A DNA stretch of 37,355 nucleotides from an uncultured Candidatus Saccharibacteria bacterium. Lineage in GTDB: Bacteria; Patescibacteriota; Saccharimonadia; Saccharimonadales; Saccharimonadaceae. The notes under the pieces were generated by a model. That model made no database searches. It saw nothing but the letters and a program-made list of their open reading frames with translations, and was not told where the DNA came from. Positions 13,881 to 27,300 of the stretch are shown here, piece by piece; within the stretch, counting starts at the first letter, position 1, and every line of letters starts with the position of its first letter. Location of the stretch: assembly GCA_946548715.1 (NCBI GenBank), contig CAMNPZ010000008.1, forward strand, positions 1 to 37,355, written 5' to 3'. Position numbers and translations under genes: made by a program.

Positions 13881-15439
13881 TATTGTAACTCCTTAGAAAA
13901 TTCAATCAACTGTTTATCGCTGCGTCTTGGGCCAACTAGCTGCAGGCCAATTGGTAATCCAGCCTTAGTCATGCCGGCCGGAATGGCGAGACCAGGTACG
14001 CCAGCCAAGTTTAAAGAAACACTCATCACATCCTCGAGATACATTGCAATCGGGTCATTTACCTTTTCGCCGAGTTTGAAGGCAGGGCTAGGTGATACCG
14101 GTGTCAAGATGTAATCAACTTTCTGAAAAGCCTCTTCGTACGCCTTTACGATCAAAGTCCGTGCCTTTGCTGCCTTCAGGAAATATGCATCATAAAACCC
14201 CGACGACAAAACAAAATTTCCAATCATAATTCTGCGTTTGTTTTCCGGCATAAATCCCTCATTACGAGTATTCTCATACAAACCGTCCAAATCGTCGGAC
14301 TTATCGGAACGGAATCCGTATCGTACGCCGTCATAACGCGACAAATTCGAAGCCACTTCGGCTGGCACTATAATATAATATGCCGCCAAAGCATACTTTA
14401 GTGCTGGCATCTCGAGCTCTACTATCTCGTATCCTTTCGATTCTAGTAACTCGCACTTAGCCTTAAGCGCCTTTCGAATTTCATTATCTACCGACTCATT
14501 GTCGAAATCTTTAATCACGCCAACCCTGATTTTCTCCATCTCAGCATCCAAATATGCTCCTCTCGGGGCGCGTCCAGCCGGCCCGTCGACTGAAGTCGCC
14601 GACCCATCGTCGTCTCGGAAGAACGAACCAGTTCGTTCTTCGCTCGTCTCCTCGGGTCGTCTGCCACGGGCGGCTGGCGCTACCTCTCGCGCTGCCGCGC
14701 TCCGAACCCCCTTCGATGAGCATATTTCGGCTGCTGAAATAGAATAGTAATCAGGCAACGTCGTCATATCTTTCGGATCTTGACCCGAGCTAATTGACAT
14801 CAATAAGTCCATATCCTCTGGCGTTTTGGTAAAGAAACCGATACAATCAGTCGACGAAGCCATTGCTACCACGCCATAGCGTGAGTTGCAACCATAAGTC
14901 GGTTTTAGCCCGTATACTCCATTAAACGATGCTGGTTGTCGAATTGAACCGCCTGTGTCTGTTCCGGTGGCAAATTCCACGATATCGAGTGCTACAGCTA
15001 CCGCCGAGCCTCCCGAAGAACCACCAGCTACTCTCTCCGTGTCGTAAGCATTCAAAGTCGGCCCGTAATATGAGTTCTCAGTCGATGAACCATGCGCAAA
15101 AGCGTCAAGATTGGTCCGCCCAATCATGATGGCACCCTCTGCCTCTAACCTTTCCACCACCGTGGCGGTTACGGGTGAGGTAAATCCTTCCAAGATATGT
15201 GCAGATGCTGTTGTTTCGCCCTCAGGGCTCAAGAAGTTATCCTTTAGTGCATATGGCACGCCCGCGAGTCGCCCCACCTTTTCGCCACGCGCAATGCGGG
15301 CATCAATCTCGCGCGCCTTCTGGATTGCACCAGTCTTATCCAAATACGTGAATATATTATACTCTCGAAAATGCTCGGCCTTTTCCAAAGCATCTCTTAC
15401 TAGCCTTTCGGCCGTGACGGTTTTGTTTGCAGTTTTCAT
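13880..15439 (-). CDS. gatA: Asp-tRNA(Asn)/Glu-tRNA(Gln) amidotransferase subunit A (with in-frame insertion)
   Basis: A 519-residue amidase-signature subunit that releases ammonia from glutamine for GatB. The catalytic triad is visible: Lys66 (ALKDNF), cis-Ser141 (GGSSGGS) and Ser165 (TGTDTGGSIRQP), with the family's 75/24-residue spacing. Residues about 235-300 ([15 protein letters not shown] ... [10 protein letters not shown]) are foreign to the family and come from the palindromic element at 14541-14737. They fall between PDYYSISAA and EKIRVGVIKDF, where normal GatA has a short surface linker. The reading frame is preserved and all catalytic residues are intact, so it is presumably active. 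Overlaps gatC (ATGA) and the HEPN-like gene (TAATG). Confidence 0.96.
   Translation of the reverse strand: MKTANKTVTAERLVRDALEKAEHFREYNIFTYLDKTGAIQKAREIDARIARGEKVGRLAGVPYALKDNFLSPEGETTASAHILEGFTSPVTATVVERLEAEGAIMIGRTNLDAFAHGSSTENSYYGPTLNAYDTERVAGGSSGGSAVAVALDIVEFATGTDTGGSIRQPASFNGVYGLKPTYGCNSRYGVVAMASSTDCIGFFTKTPEDMDLLMSISSGQDPKDMTTLPDYYSISAAEICSSKGVRSAAAREVAPAARGRRPEETSEERTGSFFRDDDGSATSVDGPAGRAPRGAYLDAEMEKIRVGVIKDFDNESVDNEIRKALKAKCELLESKGYEIVELEMPALKYALAAYYIIVPAEVASNLSRYDGVRYGFRSDKSDDLDGLYENTRNEGFMPENKRRIMIGNFVLSSGFYDAYFLKAAKARTLIVKAYEEAFQKVDYILTPVSPSPAFKLGEKVNDPIAMYLEDVMSVSLNLAGVPGLAIPAGMTKAGLPIGLQLVGPRRSDKQLIEFSKELQ
14541..14737. repeat. In-frame palindromic insertion element, copy 3 (inside gatA), with nested palindrome
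   Basis: Outer arms at 14541-14562 and 14715-14737 are inverted copies (inner part AAATATGCTCCTC against GATGAGCATATTT). The core matches the uvrB copy: CGGGGCGCGTCC at the left end, then CCGGCCCGTCG, then CCACGGGCGGC and CGCGCTGCCGCGCTCCG at the right end. Unlike uvrB, about 75 nt of extra sequence lies in the central loop. That sequence includes the perfect hairpin GAAGAACGAA-CCAG-TTCGTTCTTC (14619-14642). Element minus one 23-nt arm is 174 nt, or 58 codons. Confidence 0.83.
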
Positions 15440-15747: not shown

Positions 15748-17388
15748 TTACTTTACGTTCTTAAACAGCTTTTTCTTGAAGTATCGAATAATCGGCAGGG
15801 CTTCCTTCAAATTCAAGAAATAGCTTGCAATCAAATAGGCAACCAAGGATATAGTCGTAATCACCAAGAACTTCGGTATCGTAATCACCAGTGAATTATC
15901 TGTCGCCATTAGAGGGATAAATTTCGTCATCGAAAACGCCACGCACCCAGCCACCGCAGTCGCAATCAGCATTCGCGATAACCCTCGCCAGAATTCGAGT
16001 GTCAGTATTCCTCCATGTGAACGTTTTTGTAAAATAGTAAGCAAGATAATCACTTCAAACATCGCACCGATAGATTGCGCCATGCCGAGCCCATCCACTC
16101 CAAATCCCATCGCCGAAAATAGCACCATCATCGCAATCGTAGCACCAATCGCTACAATCGAAACCCGAAACGGCGTCTTAGTGTCTTGATAGGCGTAAAA
16201 TCCTCTCGATGCGATGTGGAACACGGATTTAGCAAAAATCGCAAGGCACAGCATACCTAGAATGGACGAGATTGTGCCATTACTATCGTTGTTACCGATA
16301 TTGGAAATAAAACTTGTCACATACCCCCTCGTAAAGAACGCTATAACCGAAATCGGTAACGCAATCCAAATAATCATACGGAGAGCCTGTCGGAAAGTTT
16401 CGTTGAATTTGCTATTATCGCCGTCACCCAGCTCTTCGGTTAGTTTCGGGAAAAACGCCGTCGATATTGCCACCCCAATCAGGCTTACCGGTACCGTGTG
16501 TAACGTCGTCGCCTGATCGTATGAACGTACCGCCCCCGCCCCCATACGTGAAGACAAATTCATGCTTACCAGTGAATTGACGTAATCAATCCCCTGATCG
16601 AGTGAGCGTGGAGGCAATAGTCGTAAAATAGTGCGAAAGCCTTGATTCCGCCAATAAATTTTGAAATTGTAATCAAATCCCAGCCCAAATAATCCAATCA
16701 AAGCCACAATCAACTGCATGATGGCGCCCAGAATCACGCCTAGTGCTACACCCATAATGCCACCTTCGAACAGCTGTATTCCAAACAGATTAATCCCCCC
16801 CGTAAACCACGTGATGCCAATAATGATACCTATATTATATACGGCAGGTGCAAAGGCATAAAACACGAAGCGTCCCACCGCTTGTTGCATTGATGTTAGT
16901 ACTGTAGCAATCGAAAATAGGAACGGATTAATTGCAATCACGCGCGTCATATTAATGGCTAGCACCATGCCGGATTCGTCTAGTCCAGGCGAAACGATGT
17001 AGCGAATCAACGGGTCAGCAAAAATCATAATCAAAATCGACGTGATAAAAGTCAAAAACGCCAAAAGGTTAATCAGACTCGAAGACATTTCCCAAGCAGA
17101 TTTTTTATTGCCTGATGCTAGCCTTTGATTAAAGACCGGTATAAAGGACACCGCTAGCGCCCCAGAAGTCAAAATAAAGAACATGAAATCTGGAATTGTG
17201 AAGGCGGCCGTATAGGCATCAATCCCGGTCGGATAAGTCCCCAAATAATATGAATTTAGCAAACGGTCGCGAAATAAACCGAGCAAAGCTGAAACTAGTG
17301 TCGAAAAAGCTAGGACCATGGCAGCAGACTTAACAGACATCTTCATGTTTGCAAGCGCAACCACCGACTTAAATCTAAACTTCCGCAT
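15748..17388 (-). CDS. murJ: Lipid II flippase MurJ
   Basis: A 546-residue MOP-superfamily membrane protein with about 14 helices that flips lipid II across the membrane. Seen near the N-terminus: ALLGLFRDRLLNSYYLG, AFTIPDFMFFILTSGALAVSFIPVFNQ; later TLHTVPVSLIGVAISTAFFPKL and ASRGFYAYQDTKTPFRVS, typical of MurJ. The reading frame is open to 17547, but I start at the ATG at 17388 (MRKFRFK). It is preceded by TATAAT with a 7-nt gap, and the extra 53 residues upstream look non-native and would overlap the divergent gene. Ends 25 nt before gatC. Works with the class A PBP and FemAB enzymes of this window in wall assembly. Confidence 0.93.
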   Translation of the reverse strand: MRKFRFKSVVALANMKMSVKSAAMVLAFSTLVSALLGLFRDRLLNSYYLGTYPTGIDAYTAAFTIPDFMFFILTSGALAVSFIPVFNQRLASGNKKSAWEMSSSLINLLAFLTFITSILIMIFADPLIRYIVSPGLDESGMVLAINMTRVIAINPFLFSIATVLTSMQQAVGRFVFYAFAPAVYNIGIIIGITWFTGGINLFGIQLFEGGIMGVALGVILGAIMQLIVALIGLFGLGFDYNFKIYWRNQGFRTILRLLPPRSLDQGIDYVNSLVSMNLSSRMGAGAVRSYDQATTLHTVPVSLIGVAISTAFFPKLTEELGDGDNSKFNETFRQALRMIIWIALPISVIAFFTRGYVTSFISNIGNNDSNGTISSILGMLCLAIFAKSVFHIASRGFYAYQDTKTPFRVSIVAIGATIAMMVLFSAMGFGVDGLGMAQSIGAMFEVIILLTILQKRSHGGILTLEFWRGLSRMLIATAVAGCVAFSMTKFIPLMATDNSLVITIPKFLVITTISLVAYLIASYFLNLKEALPIIRYFKKKLFKNVK

Positions 17389-17395
17389 ATTATCT

Positions 17396-17401
17396 ATTAT
17401 A
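17396..17401 (-). promoter_or_regulatory. -10 box of predicted leaderless promoter, murJ
   Basis: Minus strand TGTTATAAT, AGATAAT, ATG: the same TATAATAGAnAATATG block as gatC. It is back to back with the promoter of femAB-3, about 41 bp away. Confidence 0.68.
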
Positions 17402-17442
17402 ACATGGCGTCTGGATGGGTTTGAAAAAAAATTCGTGCAGTG

Positions 17443-17448
17443 TATAAT
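17443..17448 (+). promoter_or_regulatory. -10 box of predicted leaderless promoter, femAB-3
   Basis: TATAAT, TATAGAT, ATG (17456). A possible -35 TTGAAA lies 16 nt upstream (17421-17426), in the same short region that would serve the divergent murJ promoter. Confidence 0.68.
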
Positions 17449-17455
17449 TATAGAT

Positions 17456-18526
17456 ATGGATTTTAAACAGATTTCGGTTGACGATTTTAGACAATTTGCA
17501 GATAGAAGTCCATACCGTTCATTTATGCAAACGCCAGAAATTGCCACATATCGTGAGCGAAATGGCTGGACGGTATACTACTTTGCAGTTGAGCAAAACC
17601 AAACAATTATCGCCGCCTCCATGGTGCTAGCCAAACCCTTGTTTTTAGGAAAATCGCTCTTTATTGCTCCGGGTGGACCGCTAATGGATTTAGAAAATAG
17701 CAAACTAGTTCAATTTTTCTTCACTAAACTCAAAAAATATGCAAAAACCCATAACGGGTTCGCTCTCCAGATTAGTCCATACTACGAGCTAATAGAACGC
17801 GATCGTGACGGTGGAATTATCCCAGATGGTTTTAATCGCCAAAAAGCAAGAAATAATCTTGAGCGATGCGGCTTCCATCTCTCATCTCATATAAGTCAAC
17901 CACGATACCTGTTTGCGCTGGATATTGAACATCAATCTCCGGACGAATTATTTGCTAATTTTAAACGAAACACTCGGAATCATATCCGTAAAGCCGAGAA
18001 AAAAGGAGTTGTTGTTCGCGAACTCGCAAAATCCGAATTAAGTGTTTTTAAAACAATCACAGAATCCACATCGGAGCGTCGGAACTTCTCGGATCGCACA
18101 CTGGACTACTACAAGCAAATGTATGATTTATTTCATCAACGTAATGAGATAAAATACGTTATAGCTGAGGCCGAAATCGATGGGAAAACCATTCCGCTTT
18201 CGGTTGCTATGTTTATGCTTTATGGCGATGAAATTGTCTATTTGTTTTCTGGGTCAGATCAAAAATACATGCGTGATTATAATGCTCAGTATCTTATTCA
18301 ATGGTATATGATTAAATACGCATCTGAACACGATTTTGCGCGCTATAACTTCTATGGAATTCAAGGGCTGCCCAACCGTAATTCTAAAGACTATGGTATT
18401 TATGATTTCAAAAAAGGCTTCGGTGGCCGCGTAATTGAACTTATAGGCACGTACGAAATGCCACTCGGATTAGCGTACCACGTACATGCATTTCTATCTC
18501 GAATTAAACATCACAGAATACGCTAG
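17456..18526 (+). CDS. FemAB-like peptidoglycan bridge aminoacyltransferase (copy 3)
   Basis: A 356-residue third FemAB-family member, more distant from the two tandem copies. Seen: FMQTPEIATYRERNGW at the N-terminus, SLFIAPGGPLMDL, a basic FKRNTRNHIRKAEKKG helix and YNFYGIQGLPN...YGIYDFKKGFGG. The start at 17456 (MDFKQIS) is chosen because TATAAT lies 7 nt before it and the family N-terminus begins there. The longer in-frame ATG at 17318 would add 46 residues antisense to murJ. It converges on the glycosyltransferase, the two stops sharing the palindrome CTAG (18523-18526). Acts with MurJ and the PBP in bridge synthesis by family; the amino acid is unknown. Confidence 0.87.
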   Translation: MDFKQISVDDFRQFADRSPYRSFMQTPEIATYRERNGWTVYYFAVEQNQTIIAASMVLAKPLFLGKSLFIAPGGPLMDLENSKLVQFFFTKLKKYAKTHNGFALQISPYYELIERDRDGGIIPDGFNRQKARNNLERCGFHLSSHISQPRYLFALDIEHQSPDELFANFKRNTRNHIRKAEKKGVVVRELAKSELSVFKTITESTSERRNFSDRTLDYYKQMYDLFHQRNEIKYVIAEAEIDGKTIPLSVAMFMLYGDEIVYLFSGSDQKYMRDYNAQYLIQWYMIKYASEHDFARYNFYGIQGLPNRNSKDYGIYDFKKGFGGRVIELIGTYEMPLGLAYHVHAFLSRIKHHRIR

Positions 18527-22305: not shown

Positions 22306-22995
22306 CTAGTGCTTACCTCGTGCTAATCTCGCAAAGATAATTCTTCCTGCGGAGGTTTCATGTAACCGCTCAAATTCTACTAAGACTTCTTTGCCGACCT
22401 TACGCGCGGCATTCTCAACTACCACCATAGCCCCATTTTCAAGATGTCCAACCCCCTGGCCCTTTCCGGAGCCTTTTTCAGTAATCTTAACCTTGGCCCG
22501 TTCGCCTGCCTTAAAATCAGTCTTAATTGACAGAGCTAAATCATTGAGATTCAGAGTGCTGAGCTTTTCCGCTTCGGCAACTTTGATTAGGTTATAGTCT
22601 AACGTCAACACCGTGCCATTATACTCTCTGGCGTATTTCAACAGCGCATCGTCCACCTTTTTATAGTCGTCGCCATCATCCATAATCTCCGTATTAACTT
22701 CGATGACACGCTCGAGCTCCGACACATTGTCGAGCCCAGCCCGTGCACGCAATCTTTTCTCGGCGTCCTTACCGTCAGCGAGTAGCTGTAACTCTCTCAG
22801 TACACTTTTTGGAATGATCAAATCTCCGTCTATAAACCCCGTTCGTGCCACATTTACAATCCGACCATCAATTAGCACCGAAGTATCAACAAAAATCTTG
22901 CGTTTCCCCGCTCGCATCGGTGCATGTTTTTTGAATACTAAAAAAGTCGTCTCTACTAAAATAATCCCACATATTATCAAAATCAAGTAATCCAT
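22306..22995 (-). CDS. PIN-TRAM domain membrane protein (YacL-like)
   Basis: A 229-residue protein with one N-terminal membrane helix (about 3-21), a PIN nuclease domain and a C-terminal TRAM domain. The PIN acidic residues are visible: D37 in IFVDTSVLIDGR, E in VLRELQLLAD, D in KVDDALLKYA, D in VLTLDYNL. The TRAM part begins near KAGERAKVKITEKGSGKGQGVGHLENG and would bind RNA. It resembles the C-terminal two-thirds of Bacillus YacL, which has more N-terminal helices. Likely a membrane-tethered RNase; target unknown. It starts just after the phosphoketolase C gene, with no Shine-Dalgarno site and a TACAAT 8 nt before the ATG. Confidence 0.88.
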   Translation of the reverse strand: MDYLILIICGIILVETTFLVFKKHAPMRAGKRKIFVDTSVLIDGRIVNVARTGFIDGDLIIPKSVLRELQLLADGKDAEKRLRARAGLDNVSELERVIEVNTEIMDDGDDYKKVDDALLKYAREYNGTVLTLDYNLIKVAEAEKLSTLNLNDLALSIKTDFKAGERAKVKITEKGSGKGQGVGHLENGAMVVVENAARKVGKEVLVEFERLHETSAGRIIFARLARGKH

Positions 22996-23001
22996 TAAGG
23001 A

Positions 23002-24174
23002 TTATTGTATCATATCCTCGCCATGGCTTAAAGCATGAGCATGGTTTTCTTCCATGATAGCCTGGTATTTTTCGACCAAGTCCGTTCGCCTAGCCAGTCT
23101 AGCCACGTCGATTGCGACGTCGTACCGCGAAGCCGCATTGCGTCTTAGCATCTCGAACGGCGTCGTTGTCGAGCCCTCTTCATTAAAGCCATGCACTCGT
23201 AACCTACCACGTGTAGTGTAATTCTCCAGGATAGTTTCAAGCGTTTCTGGGTAGCCGTGGAAATTCGCGATAATCGGTTTATTGCTGGTGAAAATCTCGG
23301 AAAACTCCTCTTGACTTAGCTTGTGTTCGCTCGTTCCAATTCCGCGATAAGATAGAGCATTAATATACACAAACCTGATTTTAAGGTCCGGCAAATCTTC
23401 CTTCACGATTTTGATCGCCTCGAGCATTTCGCGCCCTACGATATCTCCACAACCTACAAATACAACGTCAGGCTCATTGTCGGACCAATCCTTATAGACA
23501 GTTGCGCCGTTGTTGATGAACTCCTGCTTGGCTTTTTCTGGCGTCAAGCTCCTCACCCGCTCATTCTTGTCAAATGTTGTAAGATTTACAACATTAACAG
23601 AATTCATCATGAATCTATAGGCTTCCTCCGCCGCTAAATCGTCAATCGGAAAGAGGCAGTTGGCGAGATTAGAAGGCACCGTGAGCAGAGTAGAAATCAG
23701 CGCCGGCGACTGATGGGTGAAGCCATTATGATCTTGCCGCCAGCAGGTCGACGTCGATAGCAGATTTACCGCCGGCATCGGCTCGCGCCACTCCACTGCT
23801 TTGGATTGCTTAATAAATTTCATCTGCTGCAGTAATTGCGCCGTCACGATTGGGAAAAAGGCCTCATAACTGCCCATCATGGCCTTCTCACCATTCGCCA
23901 AGTGTCCAGTCATCACCGAGAACAATACGTTTTCGGACAGCATTTCTATAATTCTTCCATTCGCCGATTCCGGTAAATCCCAGTCTGCCTGCTTCAAAAG
24001 TCCCCAGGCACGTTTTTCGACTTCAAAGACCTGGTCAAACTTATTTGACGTAGTCTCATCTGGTGAGAAGAAATAAAAATGCGGGTCATTTTTCAATTCA
24101 TTAGTCAATAATTCGCCAATTTTTTTTGCTGTCGAATACTTTCTGATGTTTTGTTGAATAGTACCGTTATTCAT
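23002..24174 (-). CDS. Phosphoketolase C-terminal subunit (split Xfp)
   Basis: A 390-residue protein equivalent to the C-terminal half of xylulose-5-P/fructose-6-P phosphoketolase (Pyr and C-terminal domains). Seen: FFSPDETTSNK near residue 35 (GPDETASNR in full-length enzymes), VNLLSTSTCWRQDHNGFTHQSP, and EEGSTTTPFEMLRRN. The start at 24174 has its own GGAGG 5 nt upstream, and ATGAATAA overlaps the stop of the N-terminal gene by 8 nt. This shows designed re-initiation rather than a read error. An upstream in-frame ATG (24231) exists but lacks this site. The two chains together would cleave xylulose-5-P to glyceraldehyde-3-P and acetyl-P with ThDP. The total of 718 residues is shorter than the usual 790-825; much of the shortfall lies in the linker and ends. 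Confidence 0.9.
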   Translation of the reverse strand: MNNGTIQQNIRKYSTAKKIGELLTNELKNDPHFYFFSPDETTSNKFDQVFEVEKRAWGLLKQADWDLPESANGRIIEMLSENVLFSVMTGHLANGEKAMMGSYEAFFPIVTAQLLQQMKFIKQSKAVEWREPMPAVNLLSTSTCWRQDHNGFTHQSPALISTLLTVPSNLANCLFPIDDLAAEEAYRFMMNSVNVVNLTTFDKNERVRSLTPEKAKQEFINNGATVYKDWSDNEPDVVFVGCGDIVGREMLEAIKIVKEDLPDLKIRFVYINALSYRGIGTSEHKLSQEEFSEIFTSNKPIIANFHGYPETLETILENYTTRGRLRVHGFNEEGSTTTPFEMLRRNAASRYDVAIDVARLARRTDLVEKYQAIMEENHAHALSHGEDMIQ

Positions 24175-25153
24175 AGTTTCCTCCAGGTTGCGTTTCTGCC
24201 ATTGTCGTTTCACCATCTCGTCTAGAATCATTCCCGGCGAATAAGTTTTGCATCAATTCGTCTGCGCTATAACTCCGCAGCCATTCCTCTAGCTGATGCA
24301 ATTCCGACGCATCGTCTTTCGGTGCTTTGAGCGGTATTTGATGAGCTTGATGATATCTATTCGGTCCACCTTCGCCTTTTTCTGTTTGCAAGATATAAAA
24401 AGAATTATTTATCTCGTCACCCAAGGCCATTTGAAACTTCTCCACGTCTTCGCCCACCCACCGTGGCGTGAAACCAAATCCGCGTATCATTTCGTTCAAT
24501 TCCCGCTCGGACTTGCGCGCATAAATCGAAGGTGCCGAGATTTTATAGCCATTTAAGTGTAGAATCGGTAATACCTTTCCATTATTCGAACCGCTAAGTA
24601 GATTGTGTAGATTCAGGGAGTCAAGCGCCGTTGCTGTCTCTAATTCTCCGTCTCCAATCAAGACTGCAACGGTTTTCTCTGGGTGCCCGAGGCACATTCC
24701 ATACGCATTTGCCAAGGCGTATCCTAGCTCTCCGCCCTCCGTAATAACGCCTGGAGTCATCGGGCTGGCATGACTCGGAAATCCGTCAGGCCACGAGAAA
24801 TTGCGGCAGAAGTATTCCAGCCCTTCCAAATCAACCGTAGCCTTCGGGTCGACTTTGGCTAGTACCCCGTCAATCCATAGATTAGCCTGCAATGCCGGAA
24901 ATCCGTGTCCTGGCCCCAGGACGAAGCTATAATTTGGATTATCTCCATACGCAGCCTTCAGATTCGCATAGGCCACATTGATACCGTGGCAAGTCCCCCA
25001 GTGCCCCAGCAGTCGCGGTTTAATATCGTCAAACGTCAATTCTCTCTGTAATGTAAAATTATCCTGCAGATAGAGTTGCGCCACACATAAGTAATCGCAT
25101 AATCTGATGCGAGCTTGAATCTTCTCGATTTCAGCAATACCCACCGCGTTCAT
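24167..25153 (-). CDS. Phosphoketolase N-terminal subunit (split Xfp, ThDP-binding domain)
   Basis: A 328-residue protein equivalent to the N-terminal (PP, ThDP-binding) domain of phosphoketolase. Seen: LLGHWGTCHG with His51, VLGPGHGFPALQ with His83, the spaced pair of active-site histidines (His64/His97 in the Bifidobacterium enzyme), SHASPMTPG, EGGELGYALANAYG, the ThDP/Mg motif GDGELETATALDS, HLNGYKIS and YHQAHQIPL. It ends with a short polar linker just where the full-length enzyme passes into the Pyr domain. TATAAT lies 6 nt before the ATG, with no Shine-Dalgarno site. First gene of the xfpN-xfpC(-PIN-TRAM) unit. Phosphoketolase would give an organism with limited catabolism ATP from acetyl-P. 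Confidence 0.92.
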   Translation of the reverse strand: MNAVGIAEIEKIQARIRLCDYLCVAQLYLQDNFTLQRELTFDDIKPRLLGHWGTCHGINVAYANLKAAYGDNPNYSFVLGPGHGFPALQANLWIDGVLAKVDPKATVDLEGLEYFCRNFSWPDGFPSHASPMTPGVITEGGELGYALANAYGMCLGHPEKTVAVLIGDGELETATALDSLNLHNLLSGSNNGKVLPILHLNGYKISAPSIYARKSERELNEMIRGFGFTPRWVGEDVEKFQMALGDEINNSFYILQTEKGEGGPNRYHQAHQIPLKAPKDDASELHQLEEWLRSYSADELMQNLFAGNDSRRDGETTMAETQPGGNYE

Positions 25154-25159
25154 ACTACA

Positions 25160-25165
25160 ATTATA
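25160..25165 (-). promoter_or_regulatory. -10 box of predicted leaderless promoter, split phosphoketolase
   Basis: Minus strand GTGATATAAT (TGn-extended), TGTAGT, ATG; 6-nt gap. The GTGATATAAT block is identical to that of uvrB. Confidence 0.67.
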
Positions 25166-25188
25166 TCACAGGAAGCGCGTTTCAAACG

Positions 25189-27300
25189 TTAGCTTTTCTT
25201 CCCCTCCATAAACTCCTTAATCCGTCCGATTTCATCTCGCAAAGCCGCAGCTCTTTCAAACTCAAGATTAGCCGCCGCCAGTTGCATCTCAGATGATAGT
25301 TGTTTGATGAGTCCTGGTAGCTCGTCTTTCGGGACGCGCTTGATGTCGAACTTATTTTCCTTCTCCTTCTCCGGAATGATAGCGCGCAGCCCCTTCGAAA
25401 TCTCTTTCTGTACCGAATGTGGCGTAATCCCGTGTTTGTCATTGTATTCTTTCTGTATTTCGCGCCGCCGGTTAGTTTCAGAAATCGCCTTTTCCATACT
25501 CTCGGTAATGAAATTCGCATACATGATTACTTTACCTTCTTCGTGTCGCGCCGCGCGCCCAATCGTCTGAATCAACGCCGATTCGGAACGCAAGAACCCC
25601 TCCTTATCTGCATCCAGTATTGCCACGAGTGACACTTCTGGCAAATCCAACCCTTCGCGCAATAGATTAATACCTACCAACACGTCATATACCCCTTCGC
25701 GCAAATCTCTCAAAATGTCACCTCTTTCCAGCGTATCAATGTCGGAATGAATATAGGCCGTTTTGACGCCCCGCTCCTTCAAATGGTCCGTCAAATCCTC
25801 CGCCATCCGCTTAGTGAGCGTGGTAATCAAAGTTCTCTGCCCCTTGGCGATTCGTTTGTCGATTTCTTCCATCAAGTCATCAATCTGTCCGTCAGACGAA
25901 CGCACTTCGATTTCTGGATCAAGTAGCCCAGTCGGACGAATCACCTGCTCAGCCGGCTTCGGCGAAACTTCGAGCTCATACTCTCCCGGCGTTGCGGATA
26001 CGTATACAGCCTGGTTGATGCGATGCTGGAACTCGCCATAAGTTAGCGGCCGGTTATCCAACGCCGACGGCAAACGGAAACCATAATCCACCAAAGCCAA
26101 CTTGCGGGCATGATCACCATTATACATGCCACGCACCTGTGGCAAAGTCATGTGCGACTCGTCTACGATTAACAAGAAATCCTCTGGGAAGAAATCTAGC
26201 AGCGTTGCAGGTGGTTCTCCCGCCCTTCGTCCATCTAGATGCCGCGAGTAGTTCTCAATTCCCTTTACGAATCCAGTTTCTTTGAGCATCTCGAGGTCGT
26301 ATTTAGTACGCTGCGATAGTCTCTGGGCTTCTAGATATTTCTGGTGCTTTTCGAAATACTTCATGCGCTCCTCATACTCGGCCCGAATCGTCACTAGGGC
26401 CTTCTCAAGCTGATCCATTGGCGTAGCGTAATGCGTATTTGGGAAAATATGTATGTGGTCGGGCTTTTCTCTCACTTCGAAAGTTAGTGGGTCGACTATT
26501 TTTACATCTTCAAGTGTATCGAAGCCGAACTCGAATCGGTACGCATGTTCTCCATTTGCTGGATACAAGTCAATCGTATCACCCATCACGCGGAAATTAC
26601 CGCGTTCGAACGCTAAATCATTGCGATGATATTGCATTCCGACGAGGCGACGAATGAAATCAAGTTGTGTGATTGGGGCGTATGAAAATTCTTCTTCGGG
26701 GCGCGTCCGGCCGGCCCGTCGCCACGGGCGGCCGGCGCTACCCCTCGCGCTGCCGCGCTCCGGACCCCCTTCAGAAGAACCTTCATACGCCCCAATCACC
26801 CAGCCTTCTTTTTCTCGCCACATCGGCAACGACATCTCCTCATAATGCTTCGGCGAGCCAATACCGTAAATGCACGAAACAGATGAGACAACAATTACAT
26901 CACGCCTAGTCAGTAGCGCCTCGGTGGCACCGTGTCGCAGCCGGTCAATCTCGTCGTTAATCGCCGAATCCTTTTCGATATACGTATCAGTCGACGCAAT
27001 ATAGGCCTCTGGCTGATAATAGTCAAAGTATGATACAAAATAATGTACCTCATTATCTGGGAAAAATTCGCGAAACTCAGAATACAGTTGTGCCGCTAGG
27101 GTCTTATTATGTGCCAATATCAAAGTTGGTCGCTGTGTCTGCTCGATAATATTAGCCATCGTAAACGTCTTCCCAGACCCAGTCACGCCAAGTAGCGTCT
27201 GCTCGTGGATGCCAGAATTAATTCCGTCGACGAGCTGACGAATTGCCGCCGGCTGATCCCCAGTCGGTTGATATTTCGACACCAATTTGAATTTAGCCAT
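25189..27300 (-). CDS. uvrB: Excinuclease ABC subunit B (with in-frame insertion)
   Basis: A 703-residue UvrB, the helicase-like damage-verification subunit of nucleotide excision repair. Seen: Walker A GVTGSGKT (38-45), the beta-hairpin [65 protein letters not shown] and the C-terminal UVR motif ([19 protein letters not shown]). Residues about 168-211 are an alien Gly/Arg/Pro-rich stretch from the palindromic element at 26669-26799. It lies between EEMSLPMW and [19 protein letters not shown], which are about 12 residues apart in ordinary UvrB. The start at 27300 ([17 protein letters not shown]) is the family N-terminus; TATAAT lies 7 nt upstream and overlaps the cpsB stop codon. Confidence 0.97.
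26669..26799. repeat. In-frame palindromic insertion element, copy 4 (inside uvrB)
   Basis: Outer arms at 26669-26694 and 26774-26799 are inverted copies identical at 24 of 26 positions (GTGATTGGGGCGTATGAA and its complement form the perfect outer 18). The core has a strong hairpin, CCGGCCGGCCCGT-CGCC-ACGGGCGGCCGG (26708-26736), followed by GCGCTACCCCTCGCGCTGCC. It shares its left end, centre and right end with the gatA copy. Element minus one arm is 105 nt, exactly 35 codons. Confidence 0.88.

Follow-up and report, generated by a model that had tools for sequence, protein, structure and literature searches.

A phosphoketolase encoded by two overlapping genes in gut Saccharibacteria, probably a two-subunit enzyme derived by gene fission

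Introduction

Does a phosphoketolase that is read as two overlapping genes represent a genuine two-subunit enzyme, or an ordinary single-chain enzyme whose gene was broken by error or decay? The question is raised by a stretch of 37,355 nucleotides from an uncultured Candidatus Saccharibacteria bacterium (hereafter the window). It constitutes contig C8 of a genome of 0.78 Mb, 96% complete, which was obtained as a MAG-type assembly of 26 contigs. Instead of the single chain of ~780-830 aa that is usual for phosphoketolase (Xfp), this genome encodes 328 + 390 aa in separate genes. The evidence assembled here makes it very probable that the two products form a two-subunit (alpha2beta2) phosphoketolase which arose by gene fission and feeds acetate kinase. 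It would be a variant form of a known enzyme; no split or two-polypeptide phosphoketolase is reported in the papers searched, including those on Saccharibacteria phosphoketolase. The features of the locus are the following:

24167..25153, minus strand: xfpN, 328 aa, PP-domain (ThDP diphosphate-binding) subunit of Xfp; Pfam XFP_N, 9cd3 match by sequence and fold
23002..24174, minus strand: xfpC, Pyr plus C-terminal domain subunit of 390 aa whose ATG lies at 24174; Pfam XFP and XFP_C, 9cd3 match by sequence and fold
24167..24174, minus strand: 8-nt overlap ATGAATAA, comprising the xfpN stop and the xfpC start
24180..24184, minus strand: Shine-Dalgarno-like GGAGG of xfpC, 5 nt upstream of its ATG
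22306..22995, minus strand: PIN-like gene, named from sequence alone, starting 6 nt past the xfpC stop in the same direction

The Two Genes and Their Junction

The 3′ end of the xfpN ORF, GGAGGAAACTATGAATAA, contains in this order the Shine-Dalgarno (SD) motif of xfpC, the xfpC ATG and the xfpN stop codon. The xfpN product carries the motifs GHWG, GPGHG, GDGELETAT and AHQIPL, and the xfpC product DETTSN, WRQDHNGFTHQ and GSTTTPFE. Re-reading of the window sequence confirmed these motifs, the ORF ends, the 8-nt overlap and the position of GGAGG to the base, as they had been given in a preliminary description of the locus. In the Pfam scan, XFP_N was assigned to the xfpN product (P0001, 272 bits, no other domain found there), while XFP (161 bits) and XFP_C (155 bits) were assigned to the xfpC product (P0002); all three domains are far above their curated cut-offs and are spread across two chains. 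A mechanical ORF finder places the xfpC start at 24231 (409 aa). This start was rejected in favor of the ATG at 24174, because the relatives begin near the latter position and show no conservation of the 19 additional residues.

A scan for sigma-70 consensus promoters around the xfp genes gave no more matches than shuffled sequences. A TATAAT motif, absent from the promoter list of that scan, lies just upstream of the xfpN ATG, only a few bases away (window 25154-25175, minus strand), a position that would fit a leaderless xfpN transcript.

Catalytic Residues, Fold, and Loss of the Linker

The residues compared are those that are catalytic or substrate-binding in B. breve Xfp (BbXfp). Their equivalence was established by alignments to 3ahj/3ai7 together with invariance across 39 species. 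H64, H97, H142, H320, and Q321 of BbXfp correspond to H51, H83, H128, H271, and Q272 of xfpN, and S440, E479, Y501, N549, H553, and K605 to S62, E100, Y122, N169, H173, and K222 of xfpC (P0002 numbering); all are invariant in the 39 sequences. According to the titles of PDB entries, the H64A, H142A, H320A, and H553A mutants of BbXfp have been deposited. The AF2 models, which are single-chain predictions, have a pLDDT of 79 for the N half and 86 for the C half. For both halves the best PDB fold match is 9cd3 (TM 0.80 and 0.86, respectively), which is also the nearest solved chain by sequence. On these models, each half is predicted to fold as the matching part of Xfp, and the overall Xfp fold appears to be present.

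The 9cd3 chain is the single-chain phosphoketolase of a Ca. Saccharibacterium (799 aa) and is homologous over both halves, with 37-44% identity in structural alignments. The N half aligns to its residues 19-345 and the C half to 399-757, so that residues 346-398, which make up the roughly 50-aa PP-Pyr linker, are absent. The break had been placed between the PP and Pyr domains in the preliminary description, and the alignments bear this out: it coincides with the linker of single-chain Xfp. The fused gene of a sister lineage (L093) retains the usual linker (...KRMGRTPYVNHFTKLELPELNLQNF...), which is gone from all split forms looked at. The split Xfps are also shorter than the fused ones, part of the region near 9cd3 residues 275-312 being missing; their Pfam XFP scores are about 161-190 bits, versus 215-300 for most fused chains, and they evolve faster. 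Since they evolve faster, are shorter and lack part of 275-312, their specificity or regulation could have shifted.

Comparison with Known Enzymes and Proposed Assembly

Like 9cd3 and the B. breve/longum Xfps (3ahc, 3ai7), the split Xfp has the same catalytic residues and Pfam domains; unlike them, it is made of two genes and chains, lacks the PP-Pyr linker and has the segment near 275-312 shortened. The single chain is the rule for the solved Xfps compared and for nearly every other Patescibacteria Xfp sampled. A precedent for the architecture is the split-gene transketolase of Carboxydothermus hydrogenoformans, with PP on one chain and Pyr + C on the other, in which ThDP binding needs both chains, the reconstituted alpha2beta2 form is active, and a linker of about 70 aa is missing (PMC7661550). 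The analogy with two-gene transketolases drawn in the preliminary description is therefore well founded, since the break falls at the same PP/Pyr border, the linker is lost and a PP chain is paired with a Pyr-C chain (6yak). However, 6yak belongs to another family, has no XFP domains, catalyzes another reaction and resembles the split Xfp only distantly in structure (TM 0.58, 20% identity). Transketolase_N was not found in the xfpN product, where XFP_N is the only domain, and PF00456 has no match genome-wide. The alpha2beta2 E1 component of pyruvate and branched-chain 2-oxoacid dehydrogenases is likewise built from an alpha chain with PP and a beta chain with Pyr + C, but it catalyzes another reaction and is a remote homolog only (1w85_A, TM 0.48).

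We infer the production of both chains, as well as their assembly, stoichiometry, activity and substrate. Gene fission would have left the PP domain on chain alpha and the Pyr plus C-terminal domains on chain beta. Assembly of the two chains as alpha2beta2 is most likely, and would correspond to the ordinary Xfp dimer, with the ThDP sites at the PP/Pyr interface; in Xfp, ThDP sits at the dimer interface (PMC10365998). If the chains do assemble in this way, a split at the PP/Pyr border would keep every catalytic element in place. As the genes overlap and the SD of the second lies within the first, their translation should be coupled and the two chains should be made in near-equal amounts.

Distribution and Origin of the Split Form

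Within the genus of the host (labeled g1, which includes the saccharibacterium Ca. Nanosyncoccus alces), the N half was found in 31 of 35 other genomes and the C half in 32, always as separate ORFs and never fused. These ORFs are about 300-395 aa (N) and 380-420 aa (C), save one at a contig end, and are adjacent and co-directional. Among 80 related loci taken from named GTDB genomes of Ca. Saccharibacteria, mostly of ruminant gut, 78 consist of two ORFs, one is truncated at a contig end and one is fused (L153). The search for adjacent halves in relatives proposed in the preliminary description has thus been answered affirmatively, and the arrangement is far beyond chance, because relatives have the same one. 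The two-gene phosphoketolase is a real inherited trait and not a sequencing error. In g1, the xfp genes lie between uvrB and the PIN-like gene, the latter kept in 58 of the 60 loci of the genus that span at least 7.5 kb; it is perhaps cotranscribed with xfp, and no functional link is claimed.

Beyond the genus, a survey of 393 genomes of the class found XFP in ~400-aa ORFs in g1, in g32 (same family), and in one g63 genome, while nearly all other XFP ORFs are ~780-880 aa and the shorter exceptions lie mostly at contig ends. In a phylum survey (380 genomes), each Xfp elsewhere is one long ORF. All 11 loci examined in g32 are split, mostly with overlaps of about 11-29 nt, and the third genus, g63, is probably split as well. 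Among the unusual matches, two apparent part genes (G383 and G403) seem to be cut by contig ends and were set aside, and G120 has a 512-aa C-part ORF, with no N half recognized. Two "fused" matches in G140 and G176 were discarded as a divergent protein without active-site motifs: these Xfp-like single chains of g38, L075 (G140:C9:516509-516919) and L076 (G176:C3:33423-33836), lack GHWG, GPGHG, GDGE, and QDHNG and are perhaps non-catalytic paralogues. No relative was found in viral contigs.

In the tree, g1 and g32 are united with full support, and the split g63 form has the fused g42 form as its sister group (support 100/95). A single clade for all split rows is not quite rejected (AU p = 0.062). 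Given these two results, either one fission followed by re-fusion in g42 or two separate fissions are both possible. A fusion is also seen in L153, from a yak rumen genome, in which the halves are joined in frame into one 725-codon ORF. The join is a GC-rich, visibly palindromic insert (L153:4901-5011) absent from the other loci, and its sequence indicates that L153 is a secondary fusion within g1, not one via the ancestral linker.

Metabolic Setting and the Absence of Transketolase

The proposed complex would convert X5P and/or F6P into acetyl phosphate, from which acetate kinase, encoded elsewhere in the genome, would produce ATP. The ackA gene of this genome is at C7:26351-27481; in g1 it does not adjoin xfp. 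It is found near the split xfp in 8 of 11 loci of g32 and in g63, near xfp also in g42, g52, and other fused forms, and has been reported near xfp in T. rhizospherense (PMC6031116).

Transketolase_N is absent from every split-Xfp genome tested, namely 24 plus 8 (32) in g1, eight in g32, and one in g63, and from the tested g42 and g52 genomes with fused Xfp too. On the other hand, it is present in 16/16 other families of the order, in which all but one copy is an ORF of ~285-330 aa and the transketolase is apparently itself encoded by split genes, and 17 of the 20 further genomes tested within the family also have it, the exceptions being g28, g53, and g62; the Xfps of g28 and g62 branch near the split clade in the tree. 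Because the domain is missing from the split group and some fused neighbors and present in most others, the loss of transketolase, with Xfp retained, preceded or roughly coincided with the split. This raises the alternative that the two-chain enzyme has a shifted chemistry and serves as the cell's principal ThDP enzyme for ketose cleavage: free of the linker, it would accept wider substrates or have separately regulated subunits, and so cover both phosphoketolase and transketolase work. Removal of the linker has indeed been suggested to widen the acceptor scope of the split transketolase (PMC7661550). Nevertheless, the phosphoketolase-specific residues are all retained, and transketolase is missing also in fused-Xfp relatives of the same clade (g42, g52, g62, and others), so the split and the loss of transketolase are not linked. 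The enzyme may have moved toward transketolase work, but the alternative as a whole is unlikely, and a two-subunit phosphoketolase is the preferred reading.

Decay, Frameshifting, and Sequencing Error

It could also be argued that the halves are functionless remnants of a decaying gene. These genomes are reduced, the split forms evolve faster than fused Xfp, and one 92%-complete genome of the genus has neither half. Yet dN/dS is 0.006-0.10 for both halves (pairs with measurable dS), well under 1; both halves are under strong purifying selection. As each tested catalytic residue is invariant in 39 species and the halves are nearly always retained together and adjacent, pseudogene fission is very improbable.

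A different possibility is that programmed ribosomal frameshifting joins the ORFs, at least partly, into one chain, as might be suggested by the C ORF in a shifted frame and the 4-nt ATGA overlap of most relatives. In the 80-locus set the overlap is 4 nt in 56 loci and otherwise 7, 8, 11 or 16 nt; the downstream frame relative to the first gene is +1 in 18 loci and +2 in 60, and the xfpN stop is TGA, TAA or TAG. In L141/145/146, which have the 16-nt overlap, the automatic xfpC start at +71 is wrong and the ATG inside the overlap is better. Neither a sequencing indel nor a conserved frameshift signal would produce such a spread of overlaps, frames and stops. Moreover, most relatives have a purine-rich SD-like motif ahead of the C start, in the g63 locus the first ATG comes only after a 37-nt gap, and no conserved slippery site stood out on a non-systematic inspection. 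Frameshifting into a single chain is thus hardly credible.

Finally, a sequencing or assembly frameshift in an ordinary single-chain xfp, conceivable in a MAG-type assembly of 26 contigs and given the fused genes of other Saccharibacteria, has a negligible probability, as had been argued from the junction, since the same break occurs in more than 100 independent assemblies, relatives have separate ORFs and not a fused gene plus an indel, the linker expected to remain is missing, and xfpC has its own SD and start.

Implications

A two-chain Xfp would carry the alpha2beta2 PP/Pyr plan of E1 enzymes and split transketolase to a third branch of the superfamily. The split form is the fixed state in well over 100 species sampled from a large group of tiny Saccharibacteria of animal guts, and Xfps that are split, fused or apparently re-joined (g1/g32/g63, g42, and L153) offer a natural set for testing the role of the linker. 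There is also a consequence for annotation, as software for gene finding and pathway prediction may label the halves as partial or frameshifted and so overlook the principal route to acetyl phosphate in these symbionts. From a biotechnological point of view, a naturally split Xfp would be a useful start for cell-free and non-oxidative-glycolysis engineering.

Additional Observations in the Window

A palindromic, GC-rich repeat some 80 nt long, with the core GGAGCGCGGCAGCGCGAG, occurs in frame inside conserved protein genes, and is found in the window at 26689-26772 (inside uvrB) and at 14658-14714 plus 14563-14588 (inside gatA). It resembles the Rickettsia palindromic elements; a literature search found no report of such elements in Saccharibacteria. 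The whole genome has 26 matches, some 20 of which are strong; of the best 20 copies, 19 fall inside long open frames. The uvrB insert is part of a 183-nt near-perfect hairpin (window 26643-26825, arms of 53 nt, MFE -112 kcal/mol), and therefore the flanks are inverted as well as the element. The palindrome inserted in L153 is different from this repeat. The host genes, recognized by eye, include uvrB, gatA, ligA, priA, topA, der, trmD, and those of a UvrD-like helicase and valyl-tRNA synthetase; these names were read from the sequence itself, as were those of three FemX/FemAB-like proteins (peptidoglycan bridge peptidyltransferase type), two of them in tandem, encoded at 75-2209 and 17318-18526 of the window.
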